Part shown: positions 34,950 through 46,844 of the stretch, piece by piece
How positions within the stretch are numbered: the first letter of the stretch is position 1
Layout of the letters: every line of letters starts with the position of its first letter
Origin: Pseudoxanthomonas sp. SE1
GTDB lineage: Bacteria > Pseudomonadota > Gammaproteobacteria > Xanthomonadales > Xanthomonadaceae
Reading direction: 5' to 3'
DNA length: 64,000 bases
NCBI RefSeq assembly: GCF_029542205.1
Contig: NZ_CP113783.1
Span: 1,913,001 to 1,977,000 of the forward strand
Program-made: the position numbers and the translations under genes
Notes under the pieces: generated by a model
Database searches by the model: none
What the model was told of the DNA's origin: nothing
Seen by the model: the letters and a program-made list of their open reading frames with translations, nothing else

Positions 34950-35624
34950 ATGAATGCGATGCTGAAGACCGGCGCCCTGGCTGCGCTCACCGTCACTCTG
35001 CTGGGCGGCTGTGCCAGCTACACCGGCCAGACCAATGATCCGAATGATCCCAACCGCACCCGTACCGGTGCCCTGATCGGTGCCGGCATCGGTGCCGTGG
35101 CCGGCCTGCTGAGCGGCAGCGATGCCACCGAACGCCGCCAGCGCGCGCTGGTGGGTGCCGGTGTCGGCGGCCTGGCGGGCGGCTCCATCGGCGCCTACCA
35201 GGATCGCCAGGAAGCGGAGCTGCGCCGCCAGACCGCGGGCACGGGCATCGATGTCAGCCGCGATGGCGACGTCATCAAGCTCAACCTGCCCGACGGCGTG
35301 ACCTTCGACTTCGGCAAGGCCGACCTGAAGTCGCAGTTCTATCCCGCGCTCAACAACGTGGCGTCCACGCTGCGGGAGTACAACCAGACCATCGTGGAAG
35401 TCAGCGGCCACACCGACAGCATCGGTTCCGACGCGGTCAACCAGCGCCTGTCGGAACAGCGCGCGGCTGCGGTCGGCAACTACCTGATCGGCCAGGGCCT
35501 GCAGCGCGAGCGCTTCGAGATCGTCGGCATGGGCAAGCGGTATCCGGTCGCCAGCAACGATACCGACGCGGGTCGTGCGATGAATCGCCGCGTCGAAGTG
35601 CGCGTACTGCCGGTGCGCTCGTAA
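34950..35624 (+). CDS. OmpA-family outer-membrane lipoprotein with glycine-zipper
   Basis: This 224-residue lipoprotein has a signal peptide with lipobox LLGGC, a glycine-zipper region ([17 protein letters not shown] and [16 protein letters not shown], about residues 40-90), and a C-terminal OmpA/MotB peptidoglycan-binding domain ([55 protein letters not shown]). This is the YiaD/PAL-like arrangement that ties the outer membrane to peptidoglycan. The ATG has an AAGGAGG ribosome site 6 bases upstream. A strong terminator follows. Confidence 0.93.
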
Positions 35625-38267: not shown

Positions 38268-40361
38268 TCAGCGGGCGCGGTCGCGCACCGTCGTCGCATA
38301 GGGCGCGAGGTAGTGGCTCAGTCCGCCGGTCCGCAACCGCGTGGCGGCCGCGCTCCAGTCGACCGGCGCGCCGGCCTTCAGCGCCTCCAGCACGGCCACG
38401 ACCGACAGCTCCACCTCCGGCAGCCCGCTCGCGCCCGGTGCGTTGCGGCGCTGTTCGATGGCCTCGAACAGCACGGCATTGGCCTCGGGGTAGGACAGCG
38501 GTTCAGTCGCGCCGTGTGCGCTGCGCCACGCGGGCGTCTCCAGCACCGCATTGACGTGCGAGAGGATCAGCCAGGTCGCGCGGCCGATCAGTTTCAGGTT
38601 GCCGGGTTGCACGCTGGTCATGGTGTTGCCGACCACGCGGCCACGCTTGGCCATGACGCCGGTGGAATGCGCATTGAGCAGCATCTTCAGCGCGATGGTC
38701 TGGTCAAGCTCGAACGCATCGCGCTGCGGCACCGTCACCGCGATCACCGGCACGGGACGGGGCAGGGCGGCGGCATCGCGCACGACCTCGGAGGCCAGCG
38801 GACGTGCGGACACCGACACCAGCACCAGGTCTGCGCCTGCTGAAGCGAACGCCTGCAGCCACTGCCGGTTCGCCTCGTCATGTGCTTCATCGCCGAGCAG
38901 GATCAGCGCACCGGAATCGCCCGCCTGCGGTCCGCTGCGGCGCATGTTGGCATCGGAATACGACAGGTCGTACAGCGCCTGCTGTTCGTCGCCCGCGTTC
39001 GCCAGCCCGCGCAGCGCGGACTCGCGCAGGTACGGGTCCGGGATGCCGGTTTCGAACGGCGGCAGGTACAGCGCTTTGTCCAGTCCGTGGAAGGGACGGT
39101 GCAGCAGTGCCTGCCAGGCCTCTTGCGCATTGCCAGCGGGCGTCCAGACCTGGATCCACGAACGCCGTTCCGGTGCGTCCACAGGGTCCAGCGGGCCGAG
39201 CCGGAAGGTAGGTGCACGCTCGGTGACGTCCACGAACACCGGCATCAACGCGCGCGTGGCCAGGTAGGTGGCACGGTGTCCGGCGGCGTAGCTTGCGGCT
39301 TCGCGCTCGGTCCACGCTGCCAGTTTCGGCGCGGCCGCCGCGACAGTCCGCTGGATGCCGGCGAAGCCGCGCAGGCGATCGGCGATGCTGGCGTCGCTGA
39401 AGCCCAGCGCGACGAGTTCGTCTGCCGACAGCACCTCGCTCAACAGCGTGCGCGTTGCGTCCTCCAGCACCACGCCCAGCACGTACAGGCTGGTGGTGGT
39501 GGCCTGCATGCGGGTGGAGCCGGTGATCGCCTGCGGCCCGGTGGGCAACGGGATCTTGGTGATCCGCGGATCGTCCAGCACGCGACGGCTGCGCTCGAAC
39601 GGGCGCAGCACCTCATCGGGATTGTTGTAGACGAACCACGTACGCCGTGCGTCCACACCGGCCTGGTCGGCGGCCGCCAGCGCGGTGCCGATCACGGCCG
39701 AGGTTTCACCGCCCTCGGTGACCGCGAAGACCAGGTCATCGCGCTGGATACCGTTGTCCTGCAACTGCAGGCGGCCGATCTCGGGGATGTCCTCGAAGCC
39801 TTCCAGCGAGGCGATCAGCGCGCGGTCGCCGCCGGTGATCTCGCCACGCACGCGTTCGCCCAGGCCGGGAAAGCGCGCCTCGATCTTGGCCATTGCCGGT
39901 GATGCGGCAGTGCGCTGCCAGAACGGGCGCCACAATCCGCTTTCGATCGTTTCAGCGAGGCGTCCGGTCGAGCCCGTGCCATAGAAGTACAGGCGGTGCC
40001 CGTCGCGCAGCGCGCGGGTGATGTCGCGCGAGGCCGCCTCCAGCGCTGCCCGCCGTGCCGGATCGTCGGCCACGTCCTGCAGGGCCTTCGCGATGTCCTC
40101 GTCCACCGCCAGCAGCGCTGCCAGTCCGTCGGTGGTATCGGCCGCGATGCGCGTGCTCAGGTCGAAGCTGCGTGGGTGGCGCTGTTCGGTCAGCAGGCTG
40201 TGCAACTGGAACTGCTGCTTGTGCGCCACGAAGTCCTGCGACTGCGCCGAGGGGGTCACGCCCAGGCGGGACGGCGCAGGTTGCGCAGTGGCGGGGGCCA
40301 GGACACCGGCCATGGCAAGGAAGGACATGCTTCGCATGATGCAATTCGCCGTACGGGACAT
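38268..40361 (-). CDS. Exported double-SIS protein related to MurQ and glucokinase regulatory protein
   Basis: This 697-residue protein has two sugar-isomerase (SIS) domains in the plan of GKRP/MurQ. The first has LTEQRHPRSFDLSTRI (like the start of MurQ), YFYGTGSTGRLAE (127-137) and TEGGETSAVIGT (215-226). The second ends in KMLLNAHSTGVMAKRGRVVG and continues NTMTSVQPGNLKL, the MurQ/GKRP signature. MurQ is the cytoplasmic etherase for MurNAc 6-phosphate, but here the N-terminus (MRSMSFLAMAGVLAPATAQP, residues 9-28) looks like a signal peptide, which does not fit a phosphosugar substrate. The ATG at 40361 has a GAGGGA ribosome site. It is divergent from the NamZ gene, so a role in MurNAc or other amino-sugar recovery is inferred. 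Confidence 0.75.
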   Translation of the reverse strand: MSRTANCIMRSMSFLAMAGVLAPATAQPAPSRLGVTPSAQSQDFVAHKQQFQLHSLLTEQRHPRSFDLSTRIAADTTDGLAALLAVDEDIAKALQDVADDPARRAALEAASRDITRALRDGHRLYFYGTGSTGRLAETIESGLWRPFWQRTAASPAMAKIEARFPGLGERVRGEITGGDRALIASLEGFEDIPEIGRLQLQDNGIQRDDLVFAVTEGGETSAVIGTALAAADQAGVDARRTWFVYNNPDEVLRPFERSRRVLDDPRITKIPLPTGPQAITGSTRMQATTTSLYVLGVVLEDATRTLLSEVLSADELVALGFSDASIADRLRGFAGIQRTVAAAAPKLAAWTEREAASYAAGHRATYLATRALMPVFVDVTERAPTFRLGPLDPVDAPERRSWIQVWTPAGNAQEAWQALLHRPFHGLDKALYLPPFETGIPDPYLRESALRGLANAGDEQQALYDLSYSDANMRRSGPQAGDSGALILLGDEAHDEANRQWLQAFASAGADLVLVSVSARPLASEVVRDAAALPRPVPVIAVTVPQRDAFELDQTIALKMLLNAHSTGVMAKRGRVVGNTMTSVQPGNLKLIGRATWLILSHVNAVLETPAWRSAHGATEPLSYPEANAVLFEAIEQRRNAPGASGLPEVELSVVAVLEALKAGAPVDWSAAATRLRTGGLSHYLAPYATTVRDRAR

Positions 40362-40435
40362 CGGATCCCTCATCAGACAACGGAAGACGGTGTCGAGACC
40401 GGCGATGTTCCCCTTGCGCGGCGCCCGACGCGGGC

Positions 40436-40460
40436 TGCTATCGTCATGACAACGATAGCA
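40436..40460. promoter_or_regulatory. Palindromic operator candidate between the double-SIS gene and namZ
   Basis: TGCTATCGT (40436-40444) and ACGATAGCA (40452-40460) are perfect 9-bp arms around a 7-base centre. The site lies in the 114-base divergent region, 15 bases before the NamZ start, and could control both genes through one dimeric repressor (LacI, GntR or RpiR/MurR type; not in this window). Confidence 0.6.
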
Positions 40461-40475
40461 AACGAGAGCCACACT

Positions 40476-41786
40476 ATGCCCCGGAACCTGCGACCGTTGC
40501 ATGCCGCGCCGCGCCACCCGCGCCGGCACATCGCGCTGCTGGTGCTCGGCGTGGTGCTGGCCTGCGGCGCGAGCGGCGCATCCGCAGCGACATCGCCGCT
40601 GGATGCTGCGGCCTGTGATTGCACGAGCACGGCACCGCGGCTGGGTATCGATGTCCTGCTCTCATCGCGCCTGGACCTGCTGCGCGGCAAGCGCGTGGGC
40701 CTGGTGACGAATGCCACCGGCATGGACCGTGCATTGCGCAGCACCATGGACCGCTTCGCCGCACGCACCGACTTCACGCTCGTGGCGCTGTTCGGGCCGG
40801 AGCATGGCGTGCGGGGCGACGTGCAGGCCGGCGACACGGTCGCCTCATCGCGCGATGCCGCCACCGGGTTGCCGGTGCACAGCCTGTATGGCGAGCACCG
40901 CGAACCGACGCCGGCGATGCTGGCCGGCGTCGACGTGCTGGTGTTCGACATCCAGGACGTAGGTACGCGGTTCTATACGTATCCATACACGCTGGCGGGC
41001 GTGATGCGTGCGGCAAAGCGCGCCGGTATCCCGGTGATCGTGGCGGACCGGCCCGATCCGCTCGGTGGGATGCGGGTGGAGGGCCCGGTGCTGGATCCGG
41101 CGCTGGCGTCGTTCTTGGGCATGTTCCCCATTCCGATCCGCCATGGCATGACCATCGGCGAGCTGGCGACGCTGTTCAATACCCGATTCGGCATCGGCGC
41201 CGAGCTGCATGTGGTGACGATGCAGGGCTGGCGGCGCGGTGATGAACCGCTGCGTGGTGCGTTGCCGTGGGTGCCCCCGTCTCCCAACATGCCCACGCCG
41301 GACACCGCCCTGGTGTATCCGGGCATGGGCCTGCTGGAAGGCACCAACGTCTCGGAGGGCCGCGGCACCACGCGCCCGTTCGAGACCGTGGGCGCGCCGT
41401 GGGTGGATGCCCAGGCGCTGGCCGCGCGGCTCAACGCGCTGGGCCTGCCCGGGGTGCGCTTCCGCGCCACGTGGTTCACGCCCACGTTCTCGAAGCATGC
41501 AGGCCAGGTCTGCGGCGGCGTGCAGCTGCACGTGACCGATCGCGCGGCGTTCCTTCCCGTGCGTACCGGCATCGCTGTCCTGAAGGCCCTGCACGACCAG
41601 CACCCGAAGGACTTCGCCTTCCTGCCCGGCGAGCCGCCGTTCTTCGACCGGCTGGCCGGCGTGGATGATCTGCGTGCCGCCATCGCGCGCGGCGACACCC
41701 TGGACGTTATCGAAGCGCGCTGGCAGCCGGGGCTGGCGGCGTTCGAGGTGCTGCGCCGGCAGCATCTGCTGTATCCGATGCCCTGA
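40476..41786 (+). CDS. namZ: Exo-beta-N-acetylmuramidase NamZ (DUF1343)
   Basis: DUF1343 proteins such as NamZ of Bacillus remove MurNAc from the non-reducing end of peptidoglycan fragments. This 436-residue protein has a signal peptide (HIALLVLGVVLACGASGASA, residues about 18-37), then LGIDVLLSSRLDLLRGKRVG, the catalytic-site region VTNATG, FGPEHGVRGDVQAG, VLVFDIQDVGTRFYTYPYTL, IVADRPDPLGG and VYPGMGLLEGTNVSEGRGTT. All these are strongly conserved in the family. It is exported to the periplasm or beyond. The start at 40476 is one of two close in-frame ATGs (the other at 40446). It faces the MurQ-like gene, supporting a muropeptide-recycling module. Confidence 0.9.
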   Translation: MPRNLRPLHAAPRHPRRHIALLVLGVVLACGASGASAATSPLDAAACDCTSTAPRLGIDVLLSSRLDLLRGKRVGLVTNATGMDRALRSTMDRFAARTDFTLVALFGPEHGVRGDVQAGDTVASSRDAATGLPVHSLYGEHREPTPAMLAGVDVLVFDIQDVGTRFYTYPYTLAGVMRAAKRAGIPVIVADRPDPLGGMRVEGPVLDPALASFLGMFPIPIRHGMTIGELATLFNTRFGIGAELHVVTMQGWRRGDEPLRGALPWVPPSPNMPTPDTALVYPGMGLLEGTNVSEGRGTTRPFETVGAPWVDAQALAARLNALGLPGVRFRATWFTPTFSKHAGQVCGGVQLHVTDRAAFLPVRTGIAVLKALHDQHPKDFAFLPGEPPFFDRLAGVDDLRAAIARGDTLDVIEARWQPGLAAFEVLRRQHLLYPMP

Positions 41787-41799
41787 GCGCGCGGCCGTT

Positions 41800-42230
41800 T
41801 CAGCGTGAGAGCCCCCGCGACGGAGCTCGGAGCGTGAGCGATGGGGCTCCGGGCCCCAACGTTCGAGCGCTGAGGGCGATCTGTCTCACATTGAGAGCCA
41901 ACGATGGGGCTCGGAACGCCGTCGATGGCACGCCGAATGCGATGAAGATGGCACTGCGATTGCGATCCGCGAAGCTCCGCGCCTTGCGGGTGGGGCTCGG
42001 AATGCGATCTGTCTCACGTTGAAAGCCATCGATGGCATCCGGAAAGCCATCGATGGCTTTCCGAGATCGATGGGATGGCATTCCGAAAGCGATCCTCGGA
42101 GCTCCCAGCCTTGCGGAGGGAGCTCGGAGCCCGATCTTTCTCACATCCAGCCCGAACGATCGCGCTTGCAGTGGCATCGTTCTCACATTGAGAGCCACCC
42201 AAAGGGCTCGGAATGACGAGGACGCTTGCG
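41800..42230. repeat. Degenerate tandem repeat array with unit of about 128 bases; no gene seen
   Basis: The stretch 41787-42345 has no credible gene. Within it the block GATCTGTCTCAC recurs at 41878 and 42006, a variant GATCTTTCTCAC at 42133 and CATCGTTCTCAC near 42175, that is, spacings of 128, 127 and about 42 bases. The two long units share further blocks in the same order, such as GATCC, CCTTGCGG and GAGCTCGGA/GGGCTCGGAA. Small dyads recur: TCTCACATTGAGA at about 41883 and 42181, and AGCCATCGATGGC(T) twice near 42023-42058. Short open frames on both strands are low-complexity and repeat with the DNA, so they are not called. The function is unknown. Confidence 0.7.
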
Positions 42231-42242
42231 ACCGGGGGAGGC

Positions 42243-42307
42243 GTGGGAGCGACGTGCGTCGCGAGGGACTATCGGTAACGCTCCATCGCGACTGGCGTCG
42301 CTCCCAC
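42243..42307. repeat. REP-like (GTGG type) inverted repeat, copy 4
   Basis: Left arm 42243-42264 (GTGGGAGCGACGTGCGTCGC) and right arm 42286-42307 (ends GCGTCGCTCCCAC) enclose a 21-base spacer. It lies 38 bases beyond the stop of the DUF2894 gene and may end the transcript of the motor-like cassette. Confidence 0.82.
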
Positions 42308-42345
42308 ACCCACACGCCAGGCGACGCGCATGCGCGCTTCAGCCG

Positions 42346-42969
42346 CTACGTCCCCACTGCTTTCCGTTTGCGCGGGGCGCGTCGGGTCGTGCGCGGGGCT
42401 TCCGGTGCCGCGGTCAGCGGGGCCACCGCCTGCTGGAGCTGTTCCAGCGACGACAGCGTATCGGCGTAGGCGATGAAGTGCTGCAGATAACCCGGCGATG
42501 TGGCGCGCATCAGGTGCAGGGCGCGATGCACGAGCATGCCGGAGTTGAGCGGACCGGCGTCGGCGGGCAGGTCGTGCAGCGAGGCGCGCAGCTGGCTGTC
42601 GGTGCGGACCTGGGCCCAGGTCTCGCGCGCTTCGGTCAGCATGGCAGGCGCCATTAGCGGGGTGTCGTGATCCGGGAGCTGGCCGGCACGCGGCTGCAGC
42701 GCGGCGACCAGCTCGCGCAACCCGGAAGCGGCCACGGTCGCGTGTTTCGCCGCAGGGGCGGCAGGCGGTCGCTGTGCCAACGCTTCCGCATACGCCCGCA
42801 TCAACCCGGCCAGTCGCGCTTCCAGCAGGCGACGGGCTTCTCCCTCGTGCGCGCTGATCCGCGCGGCCAGCGCCTGCAGGATGTCGAAGCGTGCCGGGTC
42901 CGCGCGGTCCGCGCCCTGGGCGCGCCACGCCTGCAGCTGCGCCGTCAGCGGCAACGCGTCACCGTCCAT
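42346..42969 (-). CDS. DUF2894 protein, last gene of the motor-like cassette
   Basis: This 207-residue soluble protein matches the DUF2894 type, of unknown function. It starts MDGDALPLTAQLQAWRAQGA, continues with helices (FDILQALAARISAHEGEARR), a Pro/Ala linker, and a conserved C-terminal part (ELVAALQPRAG, NSGMLVHRALHLMRATSPGY, LQHFIAYADTLSSLEQLQQ). The final 20 residues are basic (RRAPRKRKAVGT). There is no membrane segment. Its start overlaps the end of the MotB-like gene by 11 bases, so it is coupled to it, and it forms one unit with the DUF802 and DUF3348 genes. Confidence 0.82.
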   Translation of the reverse strand: MDGDALPLTAQLQAWRAQGADRADPARFDILQALAARISAHEGEARRLLEARLAGLMRAYAEALAQRPPAAPAAKHATVAASGLRELVAALQPRAGQLPDHDTPLMAPAMLTEARETWAQVRTDSQLRASLHDLPADAGPLNSGMLVHRALHLMRATSPGYLQHFIAYADTLSSLEQLQQAVAPLTAAPEAPRTTRRAPRKRKAVGT

Positions 42970-43606
42970 CGTCACCGCTGCGTTTGGCGGGGCGGGGGAT
43001 GGGGGCGATCTCGACACGGCGGTTGCGCGCGCGGCCTTCCTCGTCGGTGTTCGCGCTGACCGGTTGCTCGGCGCCGAACGCGGCGGCGAACACCGACGAT
43101 GACGGCACGCCTTCTGCAATCAGCGTGCGCGTGACCGTCAGCGAACGCTGCGCCGAGAGTTCCCAGTTGTCGGCGAACCGGCGGTTGCTGTCGCGCACCT
43201 GGCGGTCGTCGGTGAAGCCGCTGACCATCAGGATCTCGTCGCGCGTGCGCAGGTAGCCCGCGAGCGGGGCGGCGAGACCCTTGAGCAGGTCACGGCCTTC
43301 GGGCTGCAACTGGTCGGAGTTCAGTGCGAACAGCACGTTGCCGCGGATGCCGATGCGGCCATCCACCAGCGTCACCCGCCCTTCGGCCAGCGGCACCGCG
43401 AGGGCCTTTTCGAGCGCATCGCGCTGCTGCGTTTCCAGCTCGCGCCTGCGCACTTCCTCGTCCAGCCGCTGAGACAGCTGCGCCTGCACGGCGATCACGC
43501 CGACCAGCACCAGCACGAACGCCCCCAGCAGCACCGACATCAGGTCGCCGAAGCTGGCCCAGACGGGCGCGCCGAGGTCGGTGTCGTCTCCGGTTTCCAC
43601 GCTCAT
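42959..43606 (-). CDS. MotB/OmpA-like stator protein of the motor-like cassette
   Basis: This 215-residue protein has one membrane helix near the N-terminus (about 22-43) led by WASFGDLMSVLLGAFVLVLV. Asp21 sits at the place of the proton-carrying aspartate of MotB (D in the ADFM motif) and of ZorB-like proteins. A short coiled coil (45-72) and a C-terminal OmpA-like peptidoglycan-binding domain follow (VLFALNSDQLQPEGRDLL, SGFTDDRQV, NWELSAQRSLTVTRTLIAEG, NRRVEIAP). The start overlaps the DUF802 stop (ATGA). With the ExbB/MotA-like neighbour it forms the two expected parts of an ion-driven stator. It is not the flagellar MotB: no flagellar gene is near. Confidence 0.85.
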   Translation of the reverse strand: MSVETGDDTDLGAPVWASFGDLMSVLLGAFVLVLVGVIAVQAQLSQRLDEEVRRRELETQQRDALEKALAVPLAEGRVTLVDGRIGIRGNVLFALNSDQLQPEGRDLLKGLAAPLAGYLRTRDEILMVSGFTDDRQVRDSNRRFADNWELSAQRSLTVTRTLIAEGVPSSSVFAAAFGAEQPVSANTDEEGRARNRRVEIAPIPRPAKRSGDDGR

Positions 43607-45681
43607 GCGGCTTCGGCCCCGGACAGGCGTTGCAGGTCGACGGTGATCTGGCGCTGCGCGGACAGGCTCAGGTCGACCACTTCACGTGCCTGCGCCACGT
43701 AGTAGGCCAGTTGCTCGTCGCTGCGCACGAGCGAGCGCTCCAGCGCGCCTTCGAGGCTTTCCAGGCGCGCCAGCAAGGCGTCGTTGGACTCGCCGAAGCG
43801 GGCGACCACGCTGCCCAGCGCATCGCCGAGGCCGGCGACCTCGGTGGCGCCGGCGGCGACCTGTGCGGCGACGTGTTCGAGCTTGCCGGTCTCGGCCTGA
43901 ACGTGGTCGGTGAAGCGGGTGCCGACGCGATCCAGCAGGTCGGCGGAAGTGGCGACCAGCGCATCGATGGCACCCCGCTGTTCGGTGGAAGCATGGTTCA
44001 CCGCGTCGAGCAGGGTCTGCAGCGTGCCCATCATCTGGGTGCGCTCCTCAAGCATGGCGGTATCGCGGACCATGCTGTCGGAAAGCTTCTGGCGGAGTTC
44101 CGCGATCACGTCGGCGGCGGCGCGCGGTGCTTCGGACGCCACCTGCACCAGTTGCGAGATCTCGGCGATGGTCTGCGCGGCGTGCGCCTGCGCCTGGGTG
44201 GTGATGTCCTCCGCACTGCGTGCGAGCGCATCGCAGATGTCCTGCTGCAGGCGTGCGGTCTGCGCGCCTGCATGTTCCCACTGCTCGCGCAGGGAGGCGC
44301 TCATCGCGGCCAGGCGTTCGGCCCACGCCGCCAGCCTCTCGTCGTCCTGTGCCGCCAGCGTCTGCTGAAGGCCGGCATGCGAGCGCTCCATCGCCTGCAG
44401 CAGCTCGGTGGCATGGCGTTCGATGCCGCCTGCCGCCGCCGCCAGCGCGTGTTCGTTGCGCGCGGCGATCCCGGCGCTGGTGGCCTCCTGTCGCGCAAGC
44501 GCCTGGTTCCAGTTGTTCGACAGTTCGGCGGCGTTGCGCTCCAGCCGCGTGGACACCCCGTCGAGAACGGCGGCACTGCGCTGCTCGAAACTGGCGGCCA
44601 GCCGCTCGGACAAGGCCTGCATCTGGCCGGTGAGCGTGTCGTTGGTCTGGCGCTGCTGCTCGATCGCCGTGGTCCAGCTGGCGGCTGCGGTGGTGGAGGC
44701 GGCGTCGAAACCGGCGGTCAGGCCATCGAGCTGGCGCTGCACCGCCTGCGTGACGGCGTCCTGCATCGCCGCGCTCTCGCGTGCGAGCCCTGCGAGCGTC
44801 GCCTCGGTCGCCGGCTGCAGCGCGGCGACCACGGCCCGGGCGCTGGCGTCGACACCCGACTTCAAGGCCTGCTCCAGTGAGGCCGCGAGCTGCACCTGCG
44901 CCGCTTCGGTGCGTTCGTGGAACGCCTGCTGGTTGACGACGAGGCGTTCGCCGGTGGCGTTGTTCTGGTGTTCGATCGACGCGACCATCGCCTGCAACCG
45001 GTCCACGAGGTCGGGCATCAGCGCGGCCTGCTGCTGCAGCAGGCGGAAGGATTCCTCGCGCTGGAACGATTGGGAGTGCACGCGCAGCGAGGTCGCGATT
45101 TCGCCATCGAGGTCCTGCACGGCCTGCACCCGTTCGCGACGGCAGAGCGCCGCCAGCAGGCCGAGCACCGCCGAGGTGGCGACGCCCGCGATCGAGGTGC
45201 CGAAGGCGAATGCGAGCCCCTTGACCGGCGCGCCCAGTGAACCGCGGATGGCGTCGAGATCGGTCGCGCTTTCCAGCGCCAGGCCGGTGCCCCGCAACGT
45301 GGCCATCATGCCGAGGAGGGTGCCCAGCATGCCCAGCAGTACCAGCAGGCCGACCAGGTACGGCGTCAGCGCCGGTGCGGGCAGGGCGACGCGCTCGCCT
45401 TCGATGCGCTGCCGCACCGACGGGCGCAGGCCCGGTGGCAGCAGCGCCAGCCACGCGTGCAGGCCACTGCCGGCGGCGGAGGTATCCGCGACGGCCCGCA
45501 CCAGTGTGGCGGTGGCCTGCCGGTAGCGGTGCAGTTCGACCGCGCCGGCCACATAGCAGGCGCAGATGACCAGCGTGACCACGACGCCCAGCGCATGCGT
45601 GCCGACGTAACCCACGCCGATCCAGGTGACGATGGCGAGACCCAGCAGGAACAGGGCGGCGAGGAGAGGGGTTCTGATCAT
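43603..45681 (-). CDS. DUF802 protein: ExbB/MotA-like channel core with a very long helical tail
   Basis: This 692-residue protein has four hydrophobic segments, near residues 5-26, 29-49, 106-127 and 154-179. The last two carry the MotA/TolQ/ExbB pattern: LLGMLGTLLGMMATLRGTGL and GLAFAFGTSIAGVATSAVLG. From about residue 195 to the end it is almost all Ala/Gln/Glu/Leu-rich helix, about 490 residues of coiled coil, projecting into the cytoplasm by topology. That plan (channel core plus long tail, next to a MotB-like protein) is the one of ZorA in Zorya defence, though the sequence group is DUF802. Its start overlaps the DUF3348 stop (ATGA). The coupled function (force on a cytoplasmic or envelope target) is unknown. 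Confidence 0.85.
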   Translation of the reverse strand: MIRTPLLAALFLLGLAIVTWIGVGYVGTHALGVVVTLVICACYVAGAVELHRYRQATATLVRAVADTSAAGSGLHAWLALLPPGLRPSVRQRIEGERVALPAPALTPYLVGLLVLLGMLGTLLGMMATLRGTGLALESATDLDAIRGSLGAPVKGLAFAFGTSIAGVATSAVLGLLAALCRRERVQAVQDLDGEIATSLRVHSQSFQREESFRLLQQQAALMPDLVDRLQAMVASIEHQNNATGERLVVNQQAFHERTEAAQVQLAASLEQALKSGVDASARAVVAALQPATEATLAGLARESAAMQDAVTQAVQRQLDGLTAGFDAASTTAAASWTTAIEQQRQTNDTLTGQMQALSERLAASFEQRSAAVLDGVSTRLERNAAELSNNWNQALARQEATSAGIAARNEHALAAAAGGIERHATELLQAMERSHAGLQQTLAAQDDERLAAWAERLAAMSASLREQWEHAGAQTARLQQDICDALARSAEDITTQAQAHAAQTIAEISQLVQVASEAPRAAADVIAELRQKLSDSMVRDTAMLEERTQMMGTLQTLLDAVNHASTEQRGAIDALVATSADLLDRVGTRFTDHVQAETGKLEHVAAQVAAGATEVAGLGDALGSVVARFGESNDALLARLESLEGALERSLVRSDEQLAYYVAQAREVVDLSLSAQRQITVDLQRLSGAEAA

Positions 45682-46346
45682 GGTGTTCCGGAAACGTGCG
45701 AAGTGCGAAGGGCGGCGAGCAGCGCTTCGATGGGGTGGAAGCGGACGTCCAGCTCGGCGAGCAGGACGTCCTGCAGGTCGCGGCGGAAAGTAGGGAGCCA
45801 GGCGTCGTCGGGCGCGTCGGCGTTGGCCCGCTTCAGCCGCTCGAAGTACTGGCCGAGCAGGGTGGGGGTCGTGGCCAGCAGGGCGTGTTCGCGCGGGCTC
45901 AGCGTCATCTCCATGACGGCGTCGACCTCCGCCAGCCTCGCCTGCTCGGGTGAGCCCGTGGCCAGTGCATCACGCAGGCGCCCGCGCAACGGGCCTGTGG
46001 ACGCCAGCAGGGACCGCTGGAGGTCCACGCAGTGGCGACGGAACGGCGCGAAATCCTCGCCGGTCAGTTTCTCGAGTTTGTCGGTGCGCATGATGGCGGT
46101 CCGCAAGCTGGCGCGCACGCGGGCGCAGGCGGCTGCTTCGCCTTCGGCCTGGGTCGGGAAGGAACCGGGCGTTGGCACCGCGTCGAGTGCGCGCGACAGT
46201 GCGATGGCGCGGTTCCAGTCGATCCACTGGCCCAGTCGCTCGGAAAGGGCGGGGCCGGCGGAAGGCGCGCCGACGTCGCCCAGTCGGGCAAGGAGTCGTA
46301 CGAAGGCCGGGGCCGACACCGGCGCCCGTTGTTGCACTGCTGCCAC
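45678..46346 (-). CDS. DUF3348 protein, first gene of the motor-like cassette
   Basis: This protein of about 222 residues matches the DUF3348 type, of unknown function. It is helical and soluble: SAPAFVRLLARLGDVGAPS, LGQWIDWNRAIALSRALDAV, LRTAIMRTDKLEKLTGEDFA, FRRHCVDLQRSLLASTGPLR and LATTPTLLGQYFERLKRANA are its main blocks. The frame is open far upstream, but that part is the antisense of the ssrA terminator and runs into ssrA, so a start close to the conserved part is needed: GTG at 46346 or TTG at 46358. A -10-like TAAAAT (minus strand, 46370-46375) lies just before. The gene is coupled to DUF802 by an ATGA overlap. Confidence 0.8.
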   Translation of the reverse strand: MAAVQQRAPVSAPAFVRLLARLGDVGAPSAGPALSERLGQWIDWNRAIALSRALDAVPTPGSFPTQAEGEAAACARVRASLRTAIMRTDKLEKLTGEDFAPFRRHCVDLQRSLLASTGPLRGRLRDALATGSPEQARLAEVDAVMEMTLSPREHALLATTPTLLGQYFERLKRANADAPDDAWLPTFRRDLQDVLLAELDVRFHPIEALLAALRTSHVSGTP

Positions 46347-46490: not shown

Positions 46491-46844
46491 TGGTGGAGGT
46501 GGGCGGAATTGAACCGCCGTCCGAAGGCACTCCATCCCCGGTACTACATGCTTATCCCGCCGTTGAGTCTCGTCCTGCAGCAGCACGGTGGGCAAAGCGC
46601 ACCGCAGAACCAGCCTGTTTTAGGTTGACCGGGTGCTGACAGGCAGCCACTCCCGGCGATTCCGTGATGATGACCTTACGCTGCGAGCACGGACACAAGC
46701 AGTTTCAGGGCTTACGCCTTAAGCGGCGAGAGCGTAGTTGTCGTCGTTGGCAACTAGAGTTTTGCCGCTGGATTTACGAGGAAAGCTGCCCCCTCGGCAT
46801 GCACCAGGCAACTTCGCAACCCCCGTCGAAGCCAGTGCACCCCC
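46491..46844 (-). ncRNA. ssrA: Transfer-messenger RNA (tmRNA)
   Basis: tmRNA rescues stalled ribosomes with SmpB. On the minus strand the 5' end GGGGGTGCACTGGCTTCGAC (46844 down) pairs with the 3' end CACCTCCACCA (to 46491) as the seven-pair acceptor stem, and GGTTCAATTCC is the T-arm. The resume codon starts the tag reading frame at 46751 and it ends at a TAA at 46719: the tag is ANDDNYALAA. The end CCA is encoded. The length is 354 bases. It lies 210 bases from the end of the smpB gene on the same strand. Confidence 0.97.

Follow-up and report, generated by a model that had tools for sequence, protein, structure and literature searches.

Four genes lie close together on the minus strand at 42346-46346 of the window (the whole stretch of 64,000 nucleotides analysed here), in the order DUF3348-ZorA-ZorB-DUF2894. 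Successive genes overlap by 4, 4 and 11 bases. A preliminary description of this DNA had proposed four minus-strand genes joined by two 4-base overlaps and one 11-base overlap, and both the coordinates and the overlaps were confirmed. The features of the locus are:

45678..46346, minus strand: DUF3348 protein (ZorG3 in PADLOC-DB), 222 aa; predicted by Pfam and PADLOC
43603..45681, minus strand: predicted ZorA3, 692 aa; four hydrophobic segments, a helical tail and two DUF802 units
42959..43606, minus strand: predicted ZorB3, 215 aa; Asp21, a single membrane helix and an OmpA/peptidoglycan-binding-type domain
42346..42969, minus strand: DUF2894 protein (ZorF3 in PADLOC-DB), 207 aa; basic C-terminal tail; predicted by Pfam and PADLOC
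46491..46844, minus strand: tmRNA gene (ssrA), found by ARAGORN and Rfam (RF00023, 196.4 bits); the site of the cassette, not part of the system

The DUF3348 gene most likely starts at the GTG at 46346, since the resulting 222 aa is the length of several close homologues. Its longest open reading frame has a TTG start at 46595, which would fall within the tmRNA gene. Similarly, a length of 207 aa is adopted for the DUF2894 protein, in line with its closest homologues, while the longest open reading frame extends to 43119. Close homologues bear Pseudoxanthomonas names, which makes this the probable source genus.

Upstream of the cassette, some 145 bases before the start codon of its first gene (DUF3348), is the tmRNA gene, which is followed by SmpB. 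Downstream of the cassette are the peptidoglycan-recycling enzyme NamZ (40452-41786) and Tex. Beside NamZ, 38268-40373 (minus strand) encodes a 701-residue protein that looks sugar-isomerase-like by eye and had no Pfam match at E 1e-10. Several short imperfect GGAGCTCGGAGC-like repeats can be seen by eye in the intergenic stretch that follows the cassette (41790-42345).

Assignment to Zorya type III

The four-gene cassette is almost certainly a Zorya type III anti-phage system, because the type III PADLOC models were top-scoring for all four of its proteins. ZorA matched the ZorA3 models PDLC00650 and PDLC00649 (E 0; 1061.3 and 1039.2 bits, respectively) and ZorB the ZorB3 model PDLC00651 (E 1.3e-111). 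The DUF3348 protein, scored on the longer frame to 46595, matched ZorG3 (E 4.4e-78) and the DUF2894 protein matched ZorF3 (E 1.8e-62). The Pfam assignments were PF11828 for the DUF3348 protein (E 8.3e-68, again on the frame to 46595), DUF802 in two stretches of ZorA (E 4e-18), OmpA for ZorB (E 6e-18) and PF11445 for the DUF2894 protein (E 6.5e-48, longer frame). ZorA and ZorB also gave weaker PADLOC matches to the type I and II models.

Zorya type III was named in the PADLOC paper of 2021 (PMC8565338, cited here from the part of its text that was available), on the basis of 6,401 zorBC pairs (the name as printed) lying between DUF3348 and DUF2894 genes. In the same paper, a cloned system from Stenotrophomonas nitritireducens significantly reduced plaquing by at least one phage in E. 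coli, and the two accessory proteins were proposed to regulate ZorAB. In the available parts of the Zorya literature searched, we found no type III mechanism that goes beyond this proposal. The names of the accessory proteins are swapped between sources: DUF3348 is ZorF and DUF2894 is ZorG in the available text of PMC8565338, and the reverse holds in PADLOC-DB 2.0.0.

The preliminary description had called the cassette one of unknown function, a label that is wrong given the PADLOC matches and the 2021 publication, as far as its available text goes. Of the two roles it offered, the Zorya-like defence system was the right one and was already in print. It was also correct in seeing a stator of the MotAB/ZorAB type that has a long tail in the cytoplasm and is accompanied by two soluble proteins; its remark that no Zorya effector genes were near overlooked the DUF3348 and DUF2894 genes, which are themselves the type III accessory genes.

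A PADLOC scan of 18 window genes (30675-61906) gave no match to ZorC, ZorD or ZorE at E 1e-5, and none of the matches among these genes was judged to be specific to defence. The window RecN matched mad3 (E 2e-30) and, less strongly, ATPase models, which we took as a generic cross-match. An OmpA-domain protein at 34950-35624 (plus strand) cross-matched the ZorB models (E 1e-12); we rejected it as a second ZorB, the match being most likely due to the common OmpA domain.

Anatomy of the four proteins

ZorA has hydrophobic segments at about residues 6-24, 30-48, 109-127 and 162-180, and its residues T121, T162 and S163 are invariant in 34/34 ZorA proteins of the family. The long helical tail is present as previously described, with a length of about 510 residues instead of the 490 or so claimed. 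It is found in all 34 full-length family members, which range from 692 to 890 aa. Hydrophobicity along the tail has a period of 3.60-3.66 residues in 34/34 family ZorA proteins, measured in 77-residue windows that separate it from 3.5 and hardly from 3.6. The period of a classical coiled coil is 3.5, and any amphipathic helix also gives about 3.6. The tail period thus fits near-straight bundled helices, and plain amphipathic helices would look alike. The tails of three distant ZorA3 proteins match an apolipoprotein repeat model below its cut-off, which we read as a common helix pattern and not as kinship. A direct sequence search of ZorA against solved chains gave no match at E 0.01.

In ZorB, the proposed Asp21 ahead of a single membrane helix and the OmpA domain were both borne out, the best 19-residue hydrophobic window being 22-40. 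Asp21 is identical in 34/34 aligned family ZorB proteins. The C-terminal domain matches solved MotB/PomB-type chains, and ZorB weakly matches 8vvn_B (E 1e-5), the type I structure of PMC11890865, and 8qyd_F (E 0.003).

The predicted structure of the DUF3348 protein is all-helical (mean pLDDT 77.9). That of the DUF2894 protein is helical and is a poor model (mean pLDDT 66, pTM 0.33); its C-terminus is basic in 35/35 family loci, with a net charge of +3 to +8 across the last 28 residues. A PDB fold search with the two models gave no match at E 0.001. A Pfam scan of the four cassette proteins found no nuclease family, nor any helicase family in the accessory proteins.

Linkage, distribution and movement of the cassette

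We compared 35 family loci, all of which have DUF3348, a ZorA-type gene and a DUF2894 sequence, with ZorB in 34/35. In the exception (G242, L127:1840-3504), a natural deletion joins the N-terminal part of ZorA in frame to part of DUF2894, and no ZorB was found. The 35 loci were chosen by a DUF3348 or DUF802 match, and a sample of the class (n=369) gives a fairer test of linkage. There, the 8/369 genomes with DUF3348 are precisely those with DUF2894, and the two genes are at most about 4.3 kb apart. DUF802 is present in 5/8 of these cassettes; the other three have no DUF802 at E 0.01 and yet carry ZorA3 and ZorB3 between DUF3348 and DUF2894. From the sequences compared, DUF802 is therefore a repeat found in the tails of some ZorA proteins and does not serve as a mark of Zorya III. 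The linkage of the MotB-like gene that the preliminary description had put forward as a check stood in that ZorB lies beside ZorA in 34/35 loci, and did not stand in that the constant partner is ZorA3, not DUF802. Zorya III may not be the only setting of the DUF2894 family, since it scored above cut-off in 1/14 control genomes, that of Corynebacterium glutamicum, where no Zorya III is expected and DUF3348 and DUF802 did not score.

At the level of the family, DUF802 occurs in at least 127/297 genomes, with one genome per species. In a tally by genus that covers the larger genera, it was found in 17/17 sampled species each of g7, g16 and g17, at least 15/16 in g29, at least 13/17 in g11, at least 12/17 in g28, at least 14/18 in the window's own genus (g1), at least 6/10 in g4 and at least 4/8 in g26. 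Among the matches listed there were 0/16 in g42, 0/16 in g46 and 0/11 in g14, with at least 1/16 in g51 (E 4.5e-4) and at least 1/12 in g45. Type III ZorA proteins can be without DUF802, and all of these counts are thus lower bounds for Zorya III. DUF3348 was found in 20/20 g7 genomes and 28/38 own-genus genomes (so not in 10/38); the identical model gave 0/27 in g42 and 0/17 in g46.

The near-fixation in g7 (by DUF3348) and in g16 and g17 (by DUF802) exceeds the expectation for a patchy defence gene, and would suit a housekeeping machine engaged in routine peptidoglycan or envelope work, the effect on plaquing in E. coli being a by-product of a foreign stator. The position of the window cassette next to NamZ, a peptidoglycan-recycling enzyme, points the same way, as does the single common site in g7 and in g17 (see below). 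A housekeeping role is harder to reconcile with the genomes of g42, g46 and g1 in which DUF3348 was not found, or with the reduced plaquing in print for a relative (PMC8565338, available part). NamZ itself was present only in the 8 ssrA-site regions among the 35 loci (tblastn with window queries).

The location of the cassettes also argues against housekeeping. The 35 loci occupy 18 sites, a site being defined by at least three flanking genes in common on the same side. Loci of one genus can have a site in common (8/16 in g1, 5/5 inspected in g7, 4/4 in g17, 2/2 in g28, 2/4 in g16 and 2/3 in g29), and no site common to different genera was seen among the 35 loci. Two near misses involve G089 (g53), which has two flanking genes in common with a g28 locus, and which, like the window, has its cassette within a few kb of SmpB, but beyond fur. 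No family of open reading frames of at least 110 codons is present within 5 kb of the cassette at more than 4/18 sites, which makes a constant neighbouring nuclease gene unlikely.

The trees tell against a machine inherited as part of the core. RecN was taken from all 35 genomes and the loci from 30; with G242 dropped for its truncated ZorA, 29 remained. In approximately unbiased tests on quick trees, the own genus as one clade was rejected by ZorA (p 2e-5 on the first 460 residues, p 5e-4 on the first 250) and by ZorB (p 1e-148), and not by RecN (p 0.16). On these trees, single descent of ZorA and ZorB within the genus is rejected. In every ZorA, ZorB and RecN tree, g7 forms one clade, as does g17. 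Pairwise identity correlates with that of RecN at a Spearman coefficient of 0.50 for ZorB and 0.34 for DUF3348, over 406 non-independent pairs. We read this history as prolonged residence, during which the cassette has passed from genus to genus now and then, and we consider the housekeeping explanation very improbable. We likewise found nothing in favour of the envelope-remodelling role that had been offered beside the defence role; the neighbours differ from site to site.

The ssrA site of the window is used by 8/16 own-genus cassettes inspected, out of 28 DUF3348-positive genomes. In one of the eight (G028), about 18.6 kb separate ssrA from the cassette and a phage-type integrase adjoins ssrA. 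This insert, lying between ssrA and the cassette, identifies the 3′ side of ssrA as an integration hotspot in the clade. The regions of relatives that show this are:

L073:5761-20000: region on the 3′ side of ssrA
L058:1-9400: region on the 3′ side of ssrA

The G028 insert also encodes an HNH protein matching PADLOC effector models. In G022, the stretch carried at this position is about 2 kb long. We rejected the idea of the cassette as an integrated element marked by a direct repeat of the tmRNA 3′ end, as no such repeat occurs in the window with up to 3 mismatches of 24. Nor was a second copy of the tmRNA end found in nine 20 kb same-site regions of relatives, using a 24-mer (up to 4 mismatches) or a 16-mer (1 mismatch). 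No clean empty site was found, since all 13 other own-genus genomes with a NamZ at least 77% identical also have DUF3348; in three own-genus regions without the cassette (G010, G004 and G037) the surroundings differ from those of the window.

The window DUF2894 is 76-78% identical to those of G012, G022 and G028 and 61-63% to those of G013, G018 and G019, while ZorA and DUF3348 show the reverse. The DUF2894 gene looks to have been exchanged by recombination at the ssrA site.

Proposed mechanism and comparison with known ion motors

The motors of Zorya types I and II have been solved as 5:2 ZorA:ZorB complexes, in which a collar blocks ion flow and for which peptidoglycan binding, ion flow and the ZorA tail are important (PMC11890865, cited from the part of its text that was available). 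By analogy, the stoichiometry and trigger of type III are probably those of types I and II. We consider it highly probable overall that the cassette encodes a Zorya type III system in which an ion motor senses a breach of the envelope and relays it to the accessory proteins. In the inner membrane, ZorA and ZorB would assemble 5:2 into a motor driven by ions and anchored to peptidoglycan by the OmpA domain of ZorB. A phage breaching the envelope would release the blocked channel, and ions passing Asp21 would rotate the ZorA pentamer together with its helical tail, which would be about 75 nm long if its 510 residues formed one continuous helix. Rotation of the tail would then be passed to the DUF3348 and DUF2894 proteins, which would act either on the entering DNA or at the tail itself. 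The anti-phage activity of the window cassette is itself putative, based on the cloned relative in E. coli.

The last step is a guess, given the lack of any nuclease or helicase family or PDB fold match in the accessory proteins, and the poor DUF2894 model. We tentatively suggest, as a possibility rather than an expectation, that the output resides in the two helical accessory proteins, with the basic tail of DUF2894 contacting DNA or another anionic surface. A bolder version, which we think doubtful, is that of a near-core sensor of envelope breach, long resident in several genera of the family yet still mobile between genera and sites, that disables incoming DNA without a nuclease; the ion-driven tail would pass its force to the two helical proteins as adaptors, with DUF2894 gripping the DNA by its basic tail.

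The same shortage of nuclease families in the four proteins would fit a system with no separate effector, in which infection opens the ZorAB channel, membrane potential is lost and the cell aborts the infection, the accessory proteins merely gating the leak. Such a leak was an earlier proposal for Zorya, and the view of the accessory proteins as ZorAB regulators (PMC8565338, available text) agrees with it. The long tail, present in every full-length ZorA, would however be idle, and a voltage dye gave no sign of Zorya-mediated depolarisation, in experiments on types I and II and not type III (PMC11890865, available text). An ion leak thus appears quite unlikely.

The accessory proteins might instead recruit a host-encoded nuclease or repair enzyme to do the work, the system having no effector of its own. 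The lack of a nuclease family in the cassette and of a constant neighbour is consistent with this explanation. It has no direct support, and the Stenotrophomonas system works in E. coli, so that such an enzyme would need to be broadly conserved; we regard recruitment of a host enzyme as unlikely, if less so than the leak. With relay by the motor to the accessory proteins as the preferred reading, the question of how type III stops phages matters because no nuclease or helicase family is recognised among its proteins, in contrast to types I and II. This, together with the lack of a constant extra neighbour in the loci compared, reduces the candidates to the four proteins and to a host factor with its gene at some other locus. 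Fixation in some genera, in turn, illustrates a defence system behaving almost like a core gene.

The cassette shares its stator plan with the MotAB/PomAB flagellar stators, and the C-terminal domain of ZorB matches MotB and PomB chains. It differs from them in the long ZorA tail, and ZorA has no MotA-type Pfam match at E 0.001, only DUF802. With ExbBD and TolQR it has the channel plan of the A subunit in common, PADLOC describing ZorA as MotA/ExbB/TolQ, whereas its B subunit, ZorB, has OmpA only, with no ExbD/TolR Pfam match at E 0.001. Closer relatives are Zorya types I and II, which have in common with it a ZorA/ZorB motor with a channel Asp, a long tail and a peptidoglycan-binding domain. 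The channel Asp21 of ZorB corresponds to D24 in type I and D21 in type II, according to the available text on these types. They differ in carrying either ZorC and ZorD, the latter a predicted helicase, or ZorE, a nickase, where type III has DUF3348 and DUF2894 instead.

The finding itself is a published system, and our additions to it are modest. The copy tested was that of Stenotrophomonas nitritireducens, whereas activity of the Pseudoxanthomonas copy is predicted. Compared with Zorya type III as described in the available part of PMC8565338, the same four families are present, the accessory genes flank zorA-zorB in both and there is no essential difference; judged by its genes, the window cassette is an ordinary copy of an already described system.
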